This document shows, piece by piece, positions 4,883-11,280 of a DNA stretch of 64,000 nucleotides (its first letter is position 1; every line of letters begins with the position of its first letter). The notes under the pieces are model-generated. The model saw nothing but the letters and a program-made list of their open reading frames with translations, had not been told where the DNA came from and did not search any database. The stretch is from Mogibacterium timidum ATCC 33093 (GTDB lineage: Bacteria; Bacillota; Clostridia; Peptostreptococcales; Anaerovoracaceae): the NCBI RefSeq assembly GCF_000525775.1, contig NZ_JALU01000018.1:62001-126000 (forward strand), given 5' to 3'. Position numbers and translations under genes: made by a program.

Positions 4883-5962
4883 ATGACTAAACAGGTTAGA
4901 TGTGGAAGGATTAAGATTGGCGGCGGTGCGCCAATATCTATCCAGTCCATGACAAATGTGGATACTAGAGACAGTGAGAAGCTGCTCTTTCAGATTAATG
5001 AGCTGGAGACAGCAGGCTGTGATATCGTTCGCGTGGCTATACCGGATGAAGCTGCTGCAAAATCGTTCGCCTTGGTTCGTAAACAGACGAAGATGCCGCT
5101 TGTTGCCGACATACATTTTAATTACAAGCTTGCTCTGGCGGCTATAGAGGCCGGCGCTGATAAGATCAGAATCAATCCCGGCAATATCGGTAGCGATGAG
5201 AAGGTAGCTAGAGTTGTCGAGGCTGCGGCTGATAAGGGAATTCCTATCCGAGTCGGTGTAAATTCCGGTTCGCTGGAGAAGAAGCTCCTGGAGAAGCACG
5301 GTGGAGTGACAGCGGCTGCGCTTGCTGAAAGTGCGGTAAATACGCTCGACAAGATAGAACAAATGGGCTTTGATGATCTTGTTCTATCGATTAAATCGTC
5401 CAACGTGAAGATAAATTACGATGCGCATATGATGGTCAAGGATATGACGGATCATCCTCTGCATATCGGTATCACCGAGTCAGGTACTCCTGCAAATGGA
5501 CGTCTCAAGTCCGCAGTAGGCATCGGTTCTCTGCTGCTTGCCGGCGTCGGAGATACGCTTCGAGTTTCGTTAACCGATGACCCTGTAAACGAAGTAATCT
5601 TTGGACGCAGAATTCTCGAGACAGTCGGGCTTCGTGAAAAGAGCATCGAGATAGTCTCCTGCCCAACCTGCGGCAGAACCGAGGTCGACCTTATTAACCT
5701 GGCCAACGAGGCCGAAGCTCAGCTGAGACCGATTGCCGACAAGAGAGCCGTGCTGGGACTGAAACCTCTCAAGGTTGCTGTTATGGGCTGCGTAGTCAAT
5801 GGGCCGGGAGAATCCAGAGAAGCGGACTACGGAATAGCCGGAGGCAACATGGAAGGACTCGTATTTGCGCACGGGGAGATAATCGCTAAGGTTCCGGAGA
5901 AGCAGTTGATTTCAACATTGATTGAAGTGATCTCGAAGGACGAAAGCTTGATAAATGTATAG
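4883..5962 (+). CDS. ispG: 4-hydroxy-3-methylbut-2-enyl diphosphate synthase (flavodoxin type)
   Basis: Iron-sulfur enzyme of the MEP pathway that reductively opens MEcPP to HMBPP. The protein is 359 residues. It starts with the conserved IKIGGGAPISIQSMTN and contains the C-terminal [4Fe-4S] ligands in CPTCGRTEVD and GCVVNGPGE. Its product is the substrate of IspH, encoded at 59039. The gene follows rseP by 16 bases. Bacillota often have proS after this gene; here polC follows directly. Confidence 0.97.
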   Translation: MTKQVRCGRIKIGGGAPISIQSMTNVDTRDSEKLLFQINELETAGCDIVRVAIPDEAAAKSFALVRKQTKMPLVADIHFNYKLALAAIEAGADKIRINPGNIGSDEKVARVVEAAADKGIPIRVGVNSGSLEKKLLEKHGGVTAAALAESAVNTLDKIEQMGFDDLVLSIKSSNVKINYDAHMMVKDMTDHPLHIGITESGTPANGRLKSAVGIGSLLLAGVGDTLRVSLTDDPVNEVIFGRRILETVGLREKSIEIVSCPTCGRTEVDLINLANEAEAQLRPIADKRAVLGLKPLKVAVMGCVVNGPGESREADYGIAGGNMEGLVFAHGEIIAKVPEKQLISTLIEVISKDESLINV

Positions 5963-5983: not shown

Positions 5984-8900
5984 ATGATTGATATACCTGA
6001 TGGAATTCTGATGCCCGAAGAGGTGAGCGCATCTGCAGGTAGGCCTGCTGAAGAGTTAACACTTTCTTTTAAGCATATTTCACTCGATAGAGAAGGACTC
6101 GTGCTGGAGCTCGACGTGCTGACCAATTTCGATGTCAGGCCTCAGCTGGAGCACAAGATGAAGGATAGACTTATAAAGACTCTTGGAAATATCACTGATG
6201 TCAAGTTCAGCTATTTTTACGACGAGAGCTACGGAGCTTGCAAGCCGTGCTTAGCCGTGAGCGGAGCCAATCCGACTGAAAAGGCTAAGCCTGTAAGCGA
6301 TGGGGTAATTTTAGGCAAGAGAATCACGATGGCCGAGACATCGTACGAAAATCTTGCCGAGATTTCAGGTGCCCGCACAAAGGTTGCCATCTCCGGCGAT
6401 GTCTTTGAAATGGAAATCAAAGAGACCAGAAAGAAGAATTTCTGGGTTATGACGCTTAGGATTAATAAGGGACCTCGTGCAGCTGCGGTCAAGGCATTTA
6501 TCAAGAGCAAGCAGGAGTATGAGACTGTCAGTGAATCGCTCTCCGCCGGAGATACTATAATCGTACAGGGAGATATCAGATATGACGATTATATTCACGA
6601 AAATGTGATGATTGCTAACAGCATCAATAGAGGGATAAAGAGCAAGAGAGTTGAAACCTATGATGGCGACAAGAGAGTGGAATTGCATGCTCATACCAGG
6701 ATGAGCGAAAACGACGGTTTCAACGATGTCGATGAGATGGTTAAACAGGCTGCCGATTGGGGTCAACCGGCGATTGCCATAACAGATCACGGCGTTGTGC
6801 AGTCGTTTCCAGATGCGGCTAATACTGCCAAGAAGCTCGCCAAAAAGGGTAAAAAAATCAAAATCCTGTACGGTATGGAGGGATATCTATATCCCGATGA
6901 CGATGCTTACGATGAGAATGGAAATATCAATCTGAGCAAGAAAAGAAATACCTATCATATTATCCTCATAGCCAAGAATCTGACCGGGCTCAAGAACCTA
7001 TACAAGATAGTTTCGTATACTCATATTGATTATTTCTACAGGAGACCGCAGCTGCCTAGAAGAGTGCTGGATAAATACAAAGATGGGCTGATTATAGGCA
7101 GCGCCTGTGAGGCTGGCGAGGTATTTCAGGCAGTGCTTAAGGGTGCAAGTGATGATGAACTGCTCCGGATTGCTTCTTATTACGATTACCTTGAGATTCA
7201 GCCTCTCGGCAACAATTTCTTCTTGATAAACAGCGACAGGTATCCCAATGTAACATCCAAACAGGATTTAATCGATCTCAATATGAAGATTGTGGAGCTG
7301 GCCGATAAGCTGGGTAAGCCTGTCGTAGCTACTACAGATTCCCATTATCCGGATAAAGAGTCGGCAATATATCGCAACATCGTTATGTCGAGAGTTGGAT
7401 TTGGCGATACAAATTCCAACTCGCTGTATCTGAGAACTACTGCGGAGATGCTCAAGGAATTCGATTACCTCGGGGAAAGAGCTAAGGAGATAGTAATTGA
7501 TAATACGAATCTCATCGCTGCGATGACTGAAGAATTTCAACCGGTCCCTGATGAGAAATGCCCGCCAAGCATCGACGGCGCGGATGAGACGCTGCGGAGC
7601 ACCTGCTACGCAAATGCCGGGAGAATATACGGCGAGCCGCTTCCCGAAGAGATTCGGGAGAGGCTGGACACTGAACTCAACTCTATCATCAGCAACGGAT
7701 ATGCGGTCATGTACGTTGCGGCACAGCTGCTGGTTGAAAAGTCAAATAAAGACGGTTACTTGGTAGGCAGCAGAGGCTCTGTCGGCTCATCGTTTGCAGC
7801 TACGATGGCCGGGATCACTGAGGTTAATCCGTTAGAGCCGCATTATATCTGCCCTAAGTGTCACAAGCTGGAGTTTACAAAGAAATTGGATGTGTACGAC
7901 ACCGGTTTTGATATGCCTGACAAGGTATGTGTCAGATGTGGTACCCCTATGGACAAGAACGGACTCAACATTCCGTTTGCGACGTTCCTGGGCTTTAACG
8001 GGGACAAGGAGCCTGATATCGACCTCAACTTCGCCGGCGAATATCAGCCGATTGCGCATAAGTTCGTGGGCGAGATATTTGGAGAGAAGAATATCTTTAA
8101 GGCCGGAACAGTAGCAACTATCGCTGAAAAGACTGCCTTTGGATATGTTAAGAAGTATGAGGAGGACACCGGCAAGACCTTTTCCAGCTCGGAGGAGCTC
8201 ATCCTTGCAAATGGGTGCACAGGTACCAAGAGAACTACCGGTCAGCACCCGGGAGGCATCATCGTTGTTCCGGCCGACCGCGAGATATTCGAGTTCTGTC
8301 CGGTGCAGAAGCCTGCTAACAACAGGGATGCGGAGTTTATAACTACACATTTCGATTATCACAAGATAGATAAGAACCTGCTGAAGCTGGATATCCTCGG
8401 ACACGATGTTCCGCAGATGATTAGACATCTGCAGGACATGACAGGGGTGGACCCACTCAAGATAGACATAGCTGACAAGAAAACTCTGAGCATATTTACT
8501 TCCATCGATGCGCTCAACATACTGGATCCGGACGAATACGAGTTTAAGCACGGAACGTATGGTATTCCTGAGTTCGGAACCAACTTTACCAGAGGCATGC
8601 TGGATGCCATTCAGCCGAAGACAATTTCCGCTCTCATCAAGATTTCCGGCTTCTCGCACGGCACTGACGTGTGGACCAACAATGCCGAGGATCTGATCAA
8701 AAGCGGTGTTGCGACCATCGAGGAGCTAATCTCATGTCGTGACGACATCATGAACTATCTGATTATCAAGGGCGTGGACAAGAGCAATGCGTTTAGGATA
8801 ATGGAGGATGTCCGTAAGAACCGAGAGCTCAAGCAGGATGAGCTGGATATCATGAAGAAACACGGTGTTCCTGACTGGTATGTTGAGTCGTGCAGGACGC

Positions 8901-9445
8901 TAAAATATCTGTTCCCACGTGCACATGCTGCAGCCTACGTAATAATGGCTCTTCGGATGGCCTGGTTCAAGGTATACTATCCTAGCGCGTTCTACTGCGC
9001 ATGGTTGTCCACCAAAATCGACAACTTTGATGTGAATGTCGCCGGAGGAGGCATAAACGCCGTAAAGTCGGCTATGAATGCGCTTAATTCTGACGATGAC
9101 GATACCAGCTCAGCTAAAAAGAAGGAGCTCAAGGTCGTATATGAGGTGATATATGAGCTGCTATCTCGCGGATGTGAGTTCTCAATGCCGGAGCTGGGAG
9201 TTTCAGACCCGTGCATGTTCAATGTTGTGGATGACAGGATCAACATTCCTTTTATGGCTGTCACCGGCGTTGGACGGAGTGCTGCTATATCATTGGCAGA
9301 GGCGTACAAGGATGCTCCTTTCCTATCTATTGATGAGGTGCAGCGCAAGACTAAGCTGTCAAGCTCCAATATTGAGGACCTCAAGGCATGCGGAGTCTTC
9401 GATGATCTTCCCGACAGCGCCCAGGTATCTATATTTGATATGTAG
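5984..9445 (+). CDS. polC: DNA polymerase III alpha subunit, PolC type, without exonuclease domain
   Basis: Replicative DNA polymerase of Bacillota. The protein is 1153 residues against about 1430 for Bacillus subtilis PolC. Order of parts: a shortened N-terminal region, an OB fold (about 130-225), the PHP domain (H235, H237, D268-H269, E299, H325, C375, D452, H454), a zinc-binding CPKC...CVRCG segment, the palm with PDIDLNF (D678, D680) and THFDYH (D791), then helix-hairpin-helix and the C-terminal QVSIFDM that likely binds the clamp. The proofreading 3'-5' exonuclease that normally sits inside PHP is absent: only about 25 residues separate E299 from H325. The reading frame is intact throughout, so this looks like domain loss, not damage. 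Its start and the order ispG-polC-rimP fit the family context. Confidence 0.96.
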   Translation: MIDIPDGILMPEEVSASAGRPAEELTLSFKHISLDREGLVLELDVLTNFDVRPQLEHKMKDRLIKTLGNITDVKFSYFYDESYGACKPCLAVSGANPTEKAKPVSDGVILGKRITMAETSYENLAEISGARTKVAISGDVFEMEIKETRKKNFWVMTLRINKGPRAAAVKAFIKSKQEYETVSESLSAGDTIIVQGDIRYDDYIHENVMIANSINRGIKSKRVETYDGDKRVELHAHTRMSENDGFNDVDEMVKQAADWGQPAIAITDHGVVQSFPDAANTAKKLAKKGKKIKILYGMEGYLYPDDDAYDENGNINLSKKRNTYHIILIAKNLTGLKNLYKIVSYTHIDYFYRRPQLPRRVLDKYKDGLIIGSACEAGEVFQAVLKGASDDELLRIASYYDYLEIQPLGNNFFLINSDRYPNVTSKQDLIDLNMKIVELADKLGKPVVATTDSHYPDKESAIYRNIVMSRVGFGDTNSNSLYLRTTAEMLKEFDYLGERAKEIVIDNTNLIAAMTEEFQPVPDEKCPPSIDGADETLRSTCYANAGRIYGEPLPEEIRERLDTELNSIISNGYAVMYVAAQLLVEKSNKDGYLVGSRGSVGSSFAATMAGITEVNPLEPHYICPKCHKLEFTKKLDVYDTGFDMPDKVCVRCGTPMDKNGLNIPFATFLGFNGDKEPDIDLNFAGEYQPIAHKFVGEIFGEKNIFKAGTVATIAEKTAFGYVKKYEEDTGKTFSSSEELILANGCTGTKRTTGQHPGGIIVVPADREIFEFCPVQKPANNRDAEFITTHFDYHKIDKNLLKLDILGHDVPQMIRHLQDMTGVDPLKIDIADKKTLSIFTSIDALNILDPDEYEFKHGTYGIPEFGTNFTRGMLDAIQPKTISALIKISGFSHGTDVWTNNAEDLIKSGVATIEELISCRDDIMNYLIIKGVDKSNAFRIMEDVRKNRELKQDELDIMKKHGVPDWYVESCRTLKYLFPRAHAAAYVIMALRMAWFKVYYPSAFYCAWLSTKIDNFDVNVAGGGINAVKSAMNALNSDDDDTSSAKKKELKVVYEVIYELLSRGCEFSMPELGVSDPCMFNVVDDRINIPFMAVTGVGRSAAISLAEAYKDAPFLSIDEVQRKTKLSSSNIEDLKACGVFDDLPDSAQVSIFDM

Positions 9446-9510
9446 AAATATGTAGAAAAACTTGCAATTTTAAGGTTTATATGATAGCATACATGCGGAC
9501 GTTGGGAGCG

Positions 9511-9534
9511 AAAGAGTGGGGCAACCCACTCTTT
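9511..9534 (+). promoter_or_regulatory. Strong hairpin in the rimP leader
   Basis: A perfect 10-bp inverted repeat, AAAGAGTGGG and CCCACTCTTT, closes a 4-base GCAA loop. It lies between polC and rimP, 33 bases before the rimP start. GCAA is a stable GNRA tetraloop. There is no T run, so it is more likely an RNA processing, stability or regulatory element than a plain terminator. Confidence 0.6.
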
Positions 9535-9567
9535 CACTTATGTTATGACTTTTTCCCGGGAGGAATT

Positions 9568-10044
9568 ATGGCAAAACAGGATGTTGGTGCAAGAATTGAA
9601 GGCCTGCTGGATGAGTATCTCGCAGACAAGGAGCTTGAGATATATAACATTGAGTATAAGAAAGAAGGCAAGGACTGGAAGCTTCGCATATATCTGGACA
9701 AGCCAATAGGCTGTGATTCGGAGTATGTAGACATCAACGAGTGCGAAGATGTTACGCACTTCCTCAGCGACAGGCTGGATGAAGAGGACTTCATCGAGAG
9801 AAGCTACACACTCGAGGTTTCCTCGCCGGGATTGGATAGAGAGCTGTTGAAGCCTTCTGACTATGAGAGATTTAAGGGCAGAGATGTAGAAGTCAAGCTA
9901 TACACAGCTATTGATGGTCGCAAAGAGCTTGCCGGCAGACTGCTCGGTCGTACAGATGAAAGAGTAACTGTAGAGGTTGAAGGACGTGAAGTCGTGATAC
10001 CTGCTGATAAGATTGCCAAGATAAATTTAGCAGTAATATTTTAG
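9568..10044 (+). CDS. rimP: Ribosome maturation factor RimP
   Basis: Assembly factor for the 30S ribosomal subunit. The protein is 158 residues from the ATG at 9568, which follows a GGGAGG site at 9558-9563. A longer in-frame reading from 9481 would run through the leader hairpin and is rejected. Recognisable parts are an N-terminal alpha/beta domain with YTLEVSSPGLDRELLKP and a C-terminal SH3-like barrel (GRLLGRTDERVTVEVEGREVVIP). It leads the rimP-nusA-rnpM-infB-rbfA operon. Confidence 0.94.
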   Translation: MAKQDVGARIEGLLDEYLADKELEIYNIEYKKEGKDWKLRIYLDKPIGCDSEYVDINECEDVTHFLSDRLDEEDFIERSYTLEVSSPGLDRELLKPSDYERFKGRDVEVKLYTAIDGRKELAGRLLGRTDERVTVEVEGREVVIPADKIAKINLAVIF

Positions 10045-10053
10045 GAGGATTCG

Positions 10054-11280
10054 ATGAATAAAGAGTTTTTGGATGCTCTCACTGAACTTGAGCGTGAGAA
10101 AAACATTTCAAAAGAAGACATTATCACTGCGATTGAGGATGCTGTAGAACTCGCATATAAAAAGAACTACGGCAACTACCCTAATGTCAGGGTTTCGGTA
10201 GATCGCGAGGATGGCGAGGTTCTTGTTCTGATGAGCAAGGAGGTCGTCGAGGATGTAGAGGACGACATGATGGAGGTTTCCCTAGAGGAGGCCAGATCTT
10301 ACGACTCCAGATATGAGCTGGGTGACATCATTGAGTATCAGGTGGACCCTAAGGACTTTGGTCGCATCGCTGCACAGACCGCTAAGCAGGTAGTAGTGCA
10401 GAGAATCAGAGAAGCTGAGAGACGCAACTCTTACGATGAGTTCGTTAACAAGCAGGGAGAAATCATCACAGCCAAGATTGAGAGAATCAACAACGGAACT
10501 ATGTTCCTGTCGGTTGGAAATTCCGAGGGTATTCTGCCTCTATCCGAACAGGTGAAGAGCGAGTCTTTCAACGTAGGGGATCGCATCAAGGTATACGTAA
10601 TAGATGTCAAGAAAGCTACTAAAGGTCCTCAGATATTCCTTTCGAGATCGCATCCCGGCTTAGTTAGAAGGTTGTTTGAGCTTGAGGTTCCGGAAATTGC
10701 AGACGGCACAGTTGAAATCAAGGGAGTAGCTCGCGAGGCAGGCTCGAGAACCAAGATTGCCGTATATTCGCACGATGAGAATGTCGATCCTGTCGGTGCA
10801 TGTGTCGGCAACAGGGGAAGCAGAGTTCAGAATATCGTAGATGAGCTGTTTGGAGAGAAGATTGATATCATCGTATGGGATGAGGATCCGGCTATTCTAA
10901 TAAGCAACGTGCTCAGACCGGCGGAGGTTGAAGGTGTATACATCAACTACGTGAGCGAGAAGGAAAAGATGGCTACAGCCGTTGTTCCGGAGCAGCAGCT
11001 GTCGCTTGCTATCGGTAGAGAAGGCCAGAACGTAAGGCTCGCAGCAAGAGTAAGCGGCTGGAAGATCGATATCAAGAGCAAGGCTCAGCTGGAGGAGAGT
11101 GGCTTCGCGTTTGAAGAGTATGAGGACGAGGATGACTCATCGGAAAATGCTGTTAATGAGGTAGAACAGCCGGATAAGAGTCCTGCGGCAGAAGGTCAGA
11201 TTGCTGCAGAACCGGCAGCTGACGAGGCTGCAGCTCCTGCTGAGGTTGAAGCCGAAGTAGAAGCCGGTACGGAAGCGTAG
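10054..11280 (+). CDS. nusA: Transcription termination/antitermination factor NusA
   Basis: Binds RNA polymerase and nascent RNA and modulates pausing and termination. The protein is 408 residues. It has the N-terminal polymerase-binding domain, an S1 domain (about 135-200), and two KH domains (about 200-345) with GACVGNRGSRVQNIV and LAIGREGQNVRLAA. The last 50 or so residues are an acidic Glu/Ala-rich tail of low complexity, not a folded NusA repeat. It follows rimP by 9 bases with a GGAGG site. Confidence 0.97.
   Translation: MNKEFLDALTELEREKNISKEDIITAIEDAVELAYKKNYGNYPNVRVSVDREDGEVLVLMSKEVVEDVEDDMMEVSLEEARSYDSRYELGDIIEYQVDPKDFGRIAAQTAKQVVVQRIREAERRNSYDEFVNKQGEIITAKIERINNGTMFLSVGNSEGILPLSEQVKSESFNVGDRIKVYVIDVKKATKGPQIFLSRSHPGLVRRLFELEVPEIADGTVEIKGVAREAGSRTKIAVYSHDENVDPVGACVGNRGSRVQNIVDELFGEKIDIIVWDEDPAILISNVLRPAEVEGVYINYVSEKEKMATAVVPEQQLSLAIGREGQNVRLAARVSGWKIDIKSKAQLEESGFAFEEYEDEDDSSENAVNEVEQPDKSPAAEGQIAAEPAADEAAAPAEVEAEVEAGTEA

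Follow-up and report, generated by a model that had tools for sequence, protein, structure and literature searches.

How does a replisome proofread when its PolC has no proofreading exonuclease domain? The question is raised by the polC gene in the window, a stretch of 64,000 nucleotides of Mogibacterium DNA. The reading frame is open throughout, and its product of 1153 residues passed the cut-offs of both PolC profiles (TIGR01405, 1252 bits, cut-off 1043; PRK00448, 1343 bits, cut-off 873). Pfam recognized a single contiguous PHP domain (residues 233-398), the Pol3 palm, the fingers and HhH. Together with the alignment to 3f2b and the structure match, this gives an OB domain N-terminal to PHP, the polymerase core and a C-terminal HhH (Table 1). 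From the translations, we take the genes at this locus to be frr-uppS-cdsA-dxr-rseP-ispG-polC-rimP-nusA-infB. This is the usual order of the polC neighbourhood, and it marks the gene as the orthologous primary polC. The closest named relative of the protein is PolC of Mogibacterium pumilum (87% identity). The gene encodes a regular PolC orthologue from a species of Mogibacterium.

Table 1. Features of the polC locus, in positions of the window, with the evidence for each
Feature	Position	Strand	Length or basis
polC, PolC-type DNA polymerase III alpha without DnaQ-like exonuclease (Exo) domain	5984..9445	+	1153 aa
N-terminal region (residues 1-126), shorter than in Bacillus-type PolC by about 100 aa	5984..6361	+	
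OB-fold domain, about residues 127-226	6362..6661	+	3f2b alignment; OB-fold matches over residues 115-219
PHP, first part: H235, H237, D244, H269, E299	6680..6880	+	Pfam, invariant alignment columns
25-codon loop, residues 300-324, at the Exo insertion site of other PolCs	6881..6955	+	ligand alignment, model
PHP, second part: H325, C375, D452, H454	6956..7345	+	invariant alignment columns
Polymerase core (palm, thumb, fingers) and HhH	7589..9445	+	PDIDLNF motif = residues 677-683
ispG, upstream neighbour	4883..5962	+	translation; end 21 bases before polC
rimP-like and nusA-like genes, downstream of polC	9481..11280	+	translations

Exactly 25 codons separate the PHP ligands E299 and H325, which matches the earlier estimate made from the sequence alone; in other PolCs a DnaQ-like (DEDDh) exonuclease of about 210 residues is inserted there. 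In the PolC alignment this interval measures 198-217 residues in Exo-bearing (Exo+) relatives and 12-39 in Exo-less ones. RNase_T had no Pfam match in the 1153-residue protein. The AlphaFold model (mean pLDDT 76.8) has a simple hairpin at the loop, with strands 293-303 and 324-330, and its best structural matches are Geobacillus PolC 3F2C and 3F2B (Z 43.5, rmsd 5.3 over 934 and 910 residues, respectively). The protein therefore lacks the Exo hallmark of canonical PolC, and with the insertion absent and a DnaE1-like polymerase encoded in the same genome it belongs to the Exo-less variant, which is still counted as PolC (PMC3919608). An assembly deletion or a misannotated gene can practically be discounted, since the short loop recurs in the finished M. 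pumilum genome (NZ_CP016199.1, one contig) and in the other readable best hits from the genome collection, and the frame is open and conserved. The DEDDh insertion has been cleanly and naturally lost from Mogibacterium PolC. Hence, the sequence-only reading was right in describing a PolC without its proofreading exonuclease domain, with intact PHP and polymerase motifs in an unbroken frame, as natural and not an artefact.

The same reading had noticed an N-terminus about 100 residues shorter than in B. subtilis. Indeed, 234 residues precede the first PHP ligand in Mogibacterium PolC vs 343 in the B. subtilis-like protein L225. This shortening is real, because the end of ispG leaves no room for a missed upstream start. 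It is common to Mogibacterium and some relatives and is not found in most Exo-less PolCs. As many of these have full-length N-termini, the N-terminal and Exo reductions are separate.

The distribution of the Exo domain was followed in 165 genomes (≥90% complete) of the family to which the Mogibacterium genome belongs. PolC was matched in 150 of them, of which 12 were Exo+ and 138 Exo-less; close relatives thus do not all carry the exonuclease at this point. Elsewhere in the order, the families sampled had Exo wherever the PolC frame was complete. An even sample of the phylum contained 113 PolC-bearing genomes: 45 with Exo, 64 without it, one with an eroded domain and three in which a contig end truncates the frame. 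Both tallies are hand counts from tables, in which frames truncated by contig ends were either assigned from their separate pieces or left unclassed, as were the three of the phylum sample. The Exo-less architecture is already known: in Timinskas et al. 2014 (PMC3919608), it is reported for 6% of PolCs, all but one from Clostridia or Negativicutes. Its frequency in the even phylum sample is higher than the published 6%. The earlier view of a natural loss stands, but the case is no isolated oddity: the Exo-less state is the rule in the family, common in the phylum and published.

A tree of 137 PolC cores was calculated with the insertion columns removed and rooted on the Bacillus-like rows. The Exo state changed at least 11 times on this tree, compared to a mean of 43.9 after shuffling, with Exo+ as the root state; the count is approximate, given the weak support of several deep branches, and loss cannot be told from gain by parsimony alone. 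The direction is indicated by one genome of another family (G320; L215, G320:C143), in which PolC has kept the DEDDh insertion while the catalytic residues are gone (for example, DIETTG has become LALATTG). In the congener G293, PolC is without the Exo domain (L212). This pair argues for loss rather than gain, and the eroded domain of G320 looks like an intermediate of Exo loss. All other Exo+ rows have kept the first four DEDDh catalytic residues; the fifth, an Asp, lies one column past the scored column and is present in the rows printed. Within the family, a single Exo-less clade, corresponding to one loss, was not rejected (p-AU 0.31), and more than one loss is not needed there.

The nine PHP ligands of Mogibacterium PolC agree with the metal-ligand motif HHDHEH[C/H]DH, which marks active PHP exonucleases (PMC12926913). 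Every complete Exo-less PolC row (156/156) retains all nine (HHDHEHCDH), as do 61 of 69 Exo+ rows, some genomes being counted in two rows. The eight departing Exo+ rows (six genomes) comprise four with Asn at position 8, two with Asn at position 6 and two that are scrambled or misaligned. Position 8 is Asp in Mogibacterium PolC and Asn in B. subtilis-like rows. The exchange D226N at this position abolished the exonuclease of M. tuberculosis DnaE1, and Gka PolC, with one ligand altered, had no PHP activity (PMC5636811). An association of broken PHP sites with the presence of Exo, amounting to about 3-4 independent events, is suggestive only. Judged from the aligned ligands, the site was not newly gained to compensate for the lost domain, being intact in most Exo+ clostridial PolCs as well. 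Re-activation of PHP in Exo-less PolCs by an Asn-to-Asp exchange was rejected, as Asp is already present there in the majority of clostridial PolCs with Exo. The full ligand set was likewise present in 23 of 23 DnaE1 proteins checked, that of the Mogibacterium genome and 22 others. One Exo+ PolC of G048 (L261 and L031) reads SLDRETDHR in the ligand columns, which is either a degenerate site or a misalignment.

Other candidates for proofreading were sought in the Mogibacterium genome, which is 98% complete. The search for a separate DnaQ or DnaE, as suggested by the sequence-only reading, revealed DnaE1; for RNase_T (DEDDh), nothing exceeded the threshold (best match 12 bits), whereas the bacterial controls were detected. 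A takeover by a standalone DnaQ was rejected on this ground. No separate DnaQ/epsilon proofreader was thus found in this genome, and one distant DnaQ-superfamily protein remains, a YprB-like RNase_H_2 protein (394-aa frame, PF13482, L004). Across the family, 92 of 138 Exo-less genomes had no RNase_T match at E 0.01 (hand count). PF01612 was not matched above cut-off in Pol I of the Mogibacterium genome, and inspection of this protein revealed a degenerate 3'-5' exonuclease region with its motifs lost; Pol I was therefore also rejected as proofreader. MutS and MutL are intact and adjacent (MutL, like Pol I, was checked in the Mogibacterium genome only). The earlier statement that the cell must proofread in some other way is borne out by the missing RNase_T match and the degenerate Pol I, but it left the likeliest substitute unnamed, namely the PHP sites of PolC and DnaE1.

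In M. pumilum, the sole RNase_T match found belongs to a Cas2 (PF09707) fused to a DEDDh exonuclease (L150:379-1287, minus strand). As a Cas2-DnaQ fusion of CRISPR-system type, it was rejected as replacement proofreader.

The DEDDh domain was probably a redundant proofreader; after its recurrent loss, the task would fall to the zinc-dependent PHP site of PolC and/or DnaE1. In a clostridial-type PolC, the DEDDh domain is usually accompanied by an intact PHP exonuclease site of the trinuclear-zinc type, and the partner DnaE1 has a further intact PHP site. Indeed, a 2026 survey counts three potentially active proofreaders in most Clostridia, two in PolC (PHP and the DnaQ domain) and one in DnaE1 (PHP) (PMC12926913); one loss should therefore be tolerable. 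Redundancy would permit the loss of DEDDh, with which the PHP loop of PolC has returned to a DnaE-like length. The PHP sites of PolC itself and/or DnaE1 would then proofread, with MutS/MutL standing behind them. From its ligands we infer that the PHP site of PolC is catalytically active and proofreading. A biochemical or experimental test of the PHP exonuclease in an Exo-less PolC was not found in the open-access literature. In E. coli Pol III, PHP also serves a structural function (PMC3666897), and such a role alone could conserve parts of the domain. Furthermore, access of the primer strand to PHP may differ between PolC and DnaE1. A broader generalization is offered at slightly less than even odds: a large share of the bacteria with PolC and DnaE1 may have no DnaQ-fold proofreader, DEDDh having been lost independently about 10 times and the nine ligands always remaining intact, so that PHP would be both the sole and a sufficient replicative proofreader of these PolC-type replisomes.

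Alternatively, proofreading of PolC errors might have been lost altogether, a higher polymerase error rate being tolerated and buffered by MutS/MutL. We consider this unlikely. The presence of MutS/MutL and the failure to find a DnaQ-family proofreader are consistent with it, as is the long branch of Mogibacterium PolC (root-to-tip 1.94 vs about 1.2-1.4 in Exo+ family members). However, basal Exo-less members of the family are not faster (1.19-1.26), and the long branch is therefore not explained by Exo loss alone. G293 of the other family is not faster either (1.05 vs 1.06-1.10), and faster PolC evolution tied to Exo loss was rejected, as there was no consistent root-to-tip signal. Moreover, a useless set of nine PHP ligands should decay in some Exo-less lineages, but it has decayed in none.

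Marginally less probable still is that DnaE1 alone proofreads, either in trans or because it has assumed bulk synthesis, while PolC does not. All nine PHP ligands are present in DnaE1 of every genome checked, and DnaE1 apparently suffices in several genera of the family that have a single DnaE-type polymerase and no PolC match. Against this, the PHP site of PolC is equally conserved and polC is kept in the great majority of the family genomes (150/165). Proofreading by an unrecognised trans-acting nuclease, for example the YprB-like RNase_H_2 protein as the one distant DnaQ-superfamily member left in the genome, is highly improbable, because that protein is not close to DnaQ/epsilon and weak matches in similar-sized frames of Exo+ relatives do not give it the look of a replacement.

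Proofreading by PHP after loss of a redundant DEDDh domain can be compared with known systems. The Exo-less PolCs of Clostridia and Negativicutes share the OB/PHP/Pol3/HhH architecture, the missing Exo and the pairing with DnaE1; in the accessible part of that description (PMC3919608) nothing essential differs, apart from the shortened N-terminus of the Mogibacterium protein and a genome without another RNase_T match. Canonical PolC (B. subtilis, E. faecium 9QPC, G. kaustophilus) is orthologous by profile, neighbourhood and fold, with 44-46% identity in structural alignments to 3F2C and 9QRN. In contrast to it, Mogibacterium PolC is without the DEDDh Exo of about 210 residues and has Asp at PHP position 8, the residue found there in active PHP exonucleases. 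The Gka PolC construct (3F2B/C/D), the best structural match, lacks Exo at the same loop. There the domain was removed for crystallization (PMC12592400), whereas in Mogibacterium it is naturally absent and all PHP ligands are intact. The PHP exonuclease of M. tuberculosis DnaE1 (5LEW, PMC5636811) has the same nine-ligand site and is proposed to work in the same way. It is, however, of DnaE type, and its activity and trinuclear zinc centre are proven (PMC5636811), whereas for Mogibacterium PolC they are predicted from the ligands.

With Exo lost frequently and recurrently and PHP strictly conserved, these species offer a natural experiment: can the zinc site of PHP by itself proofread for a PolC replisome? 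Which site proofreads is also of practical interest, since the drug candidate ibezapolstat is directed against PolC (PMC12592400) and targeting of the PHP exonuclease by drugs has been suggested as well (PMC5636811).

A further observation concerns eleven genomes of the same family in which PolC was not matched (G159-G162, G169-G173, G198 and G199, from genera g74, g77, g78 and g85). In ten of these the only C-family polymerase match is of DnaE type; in G161 there was none at this cut-off. In the DnaE1 proteins that were read, the PHP motif is intact. PolC seems to have disappeared from entire genera, which would replicate with DnaE1 only.
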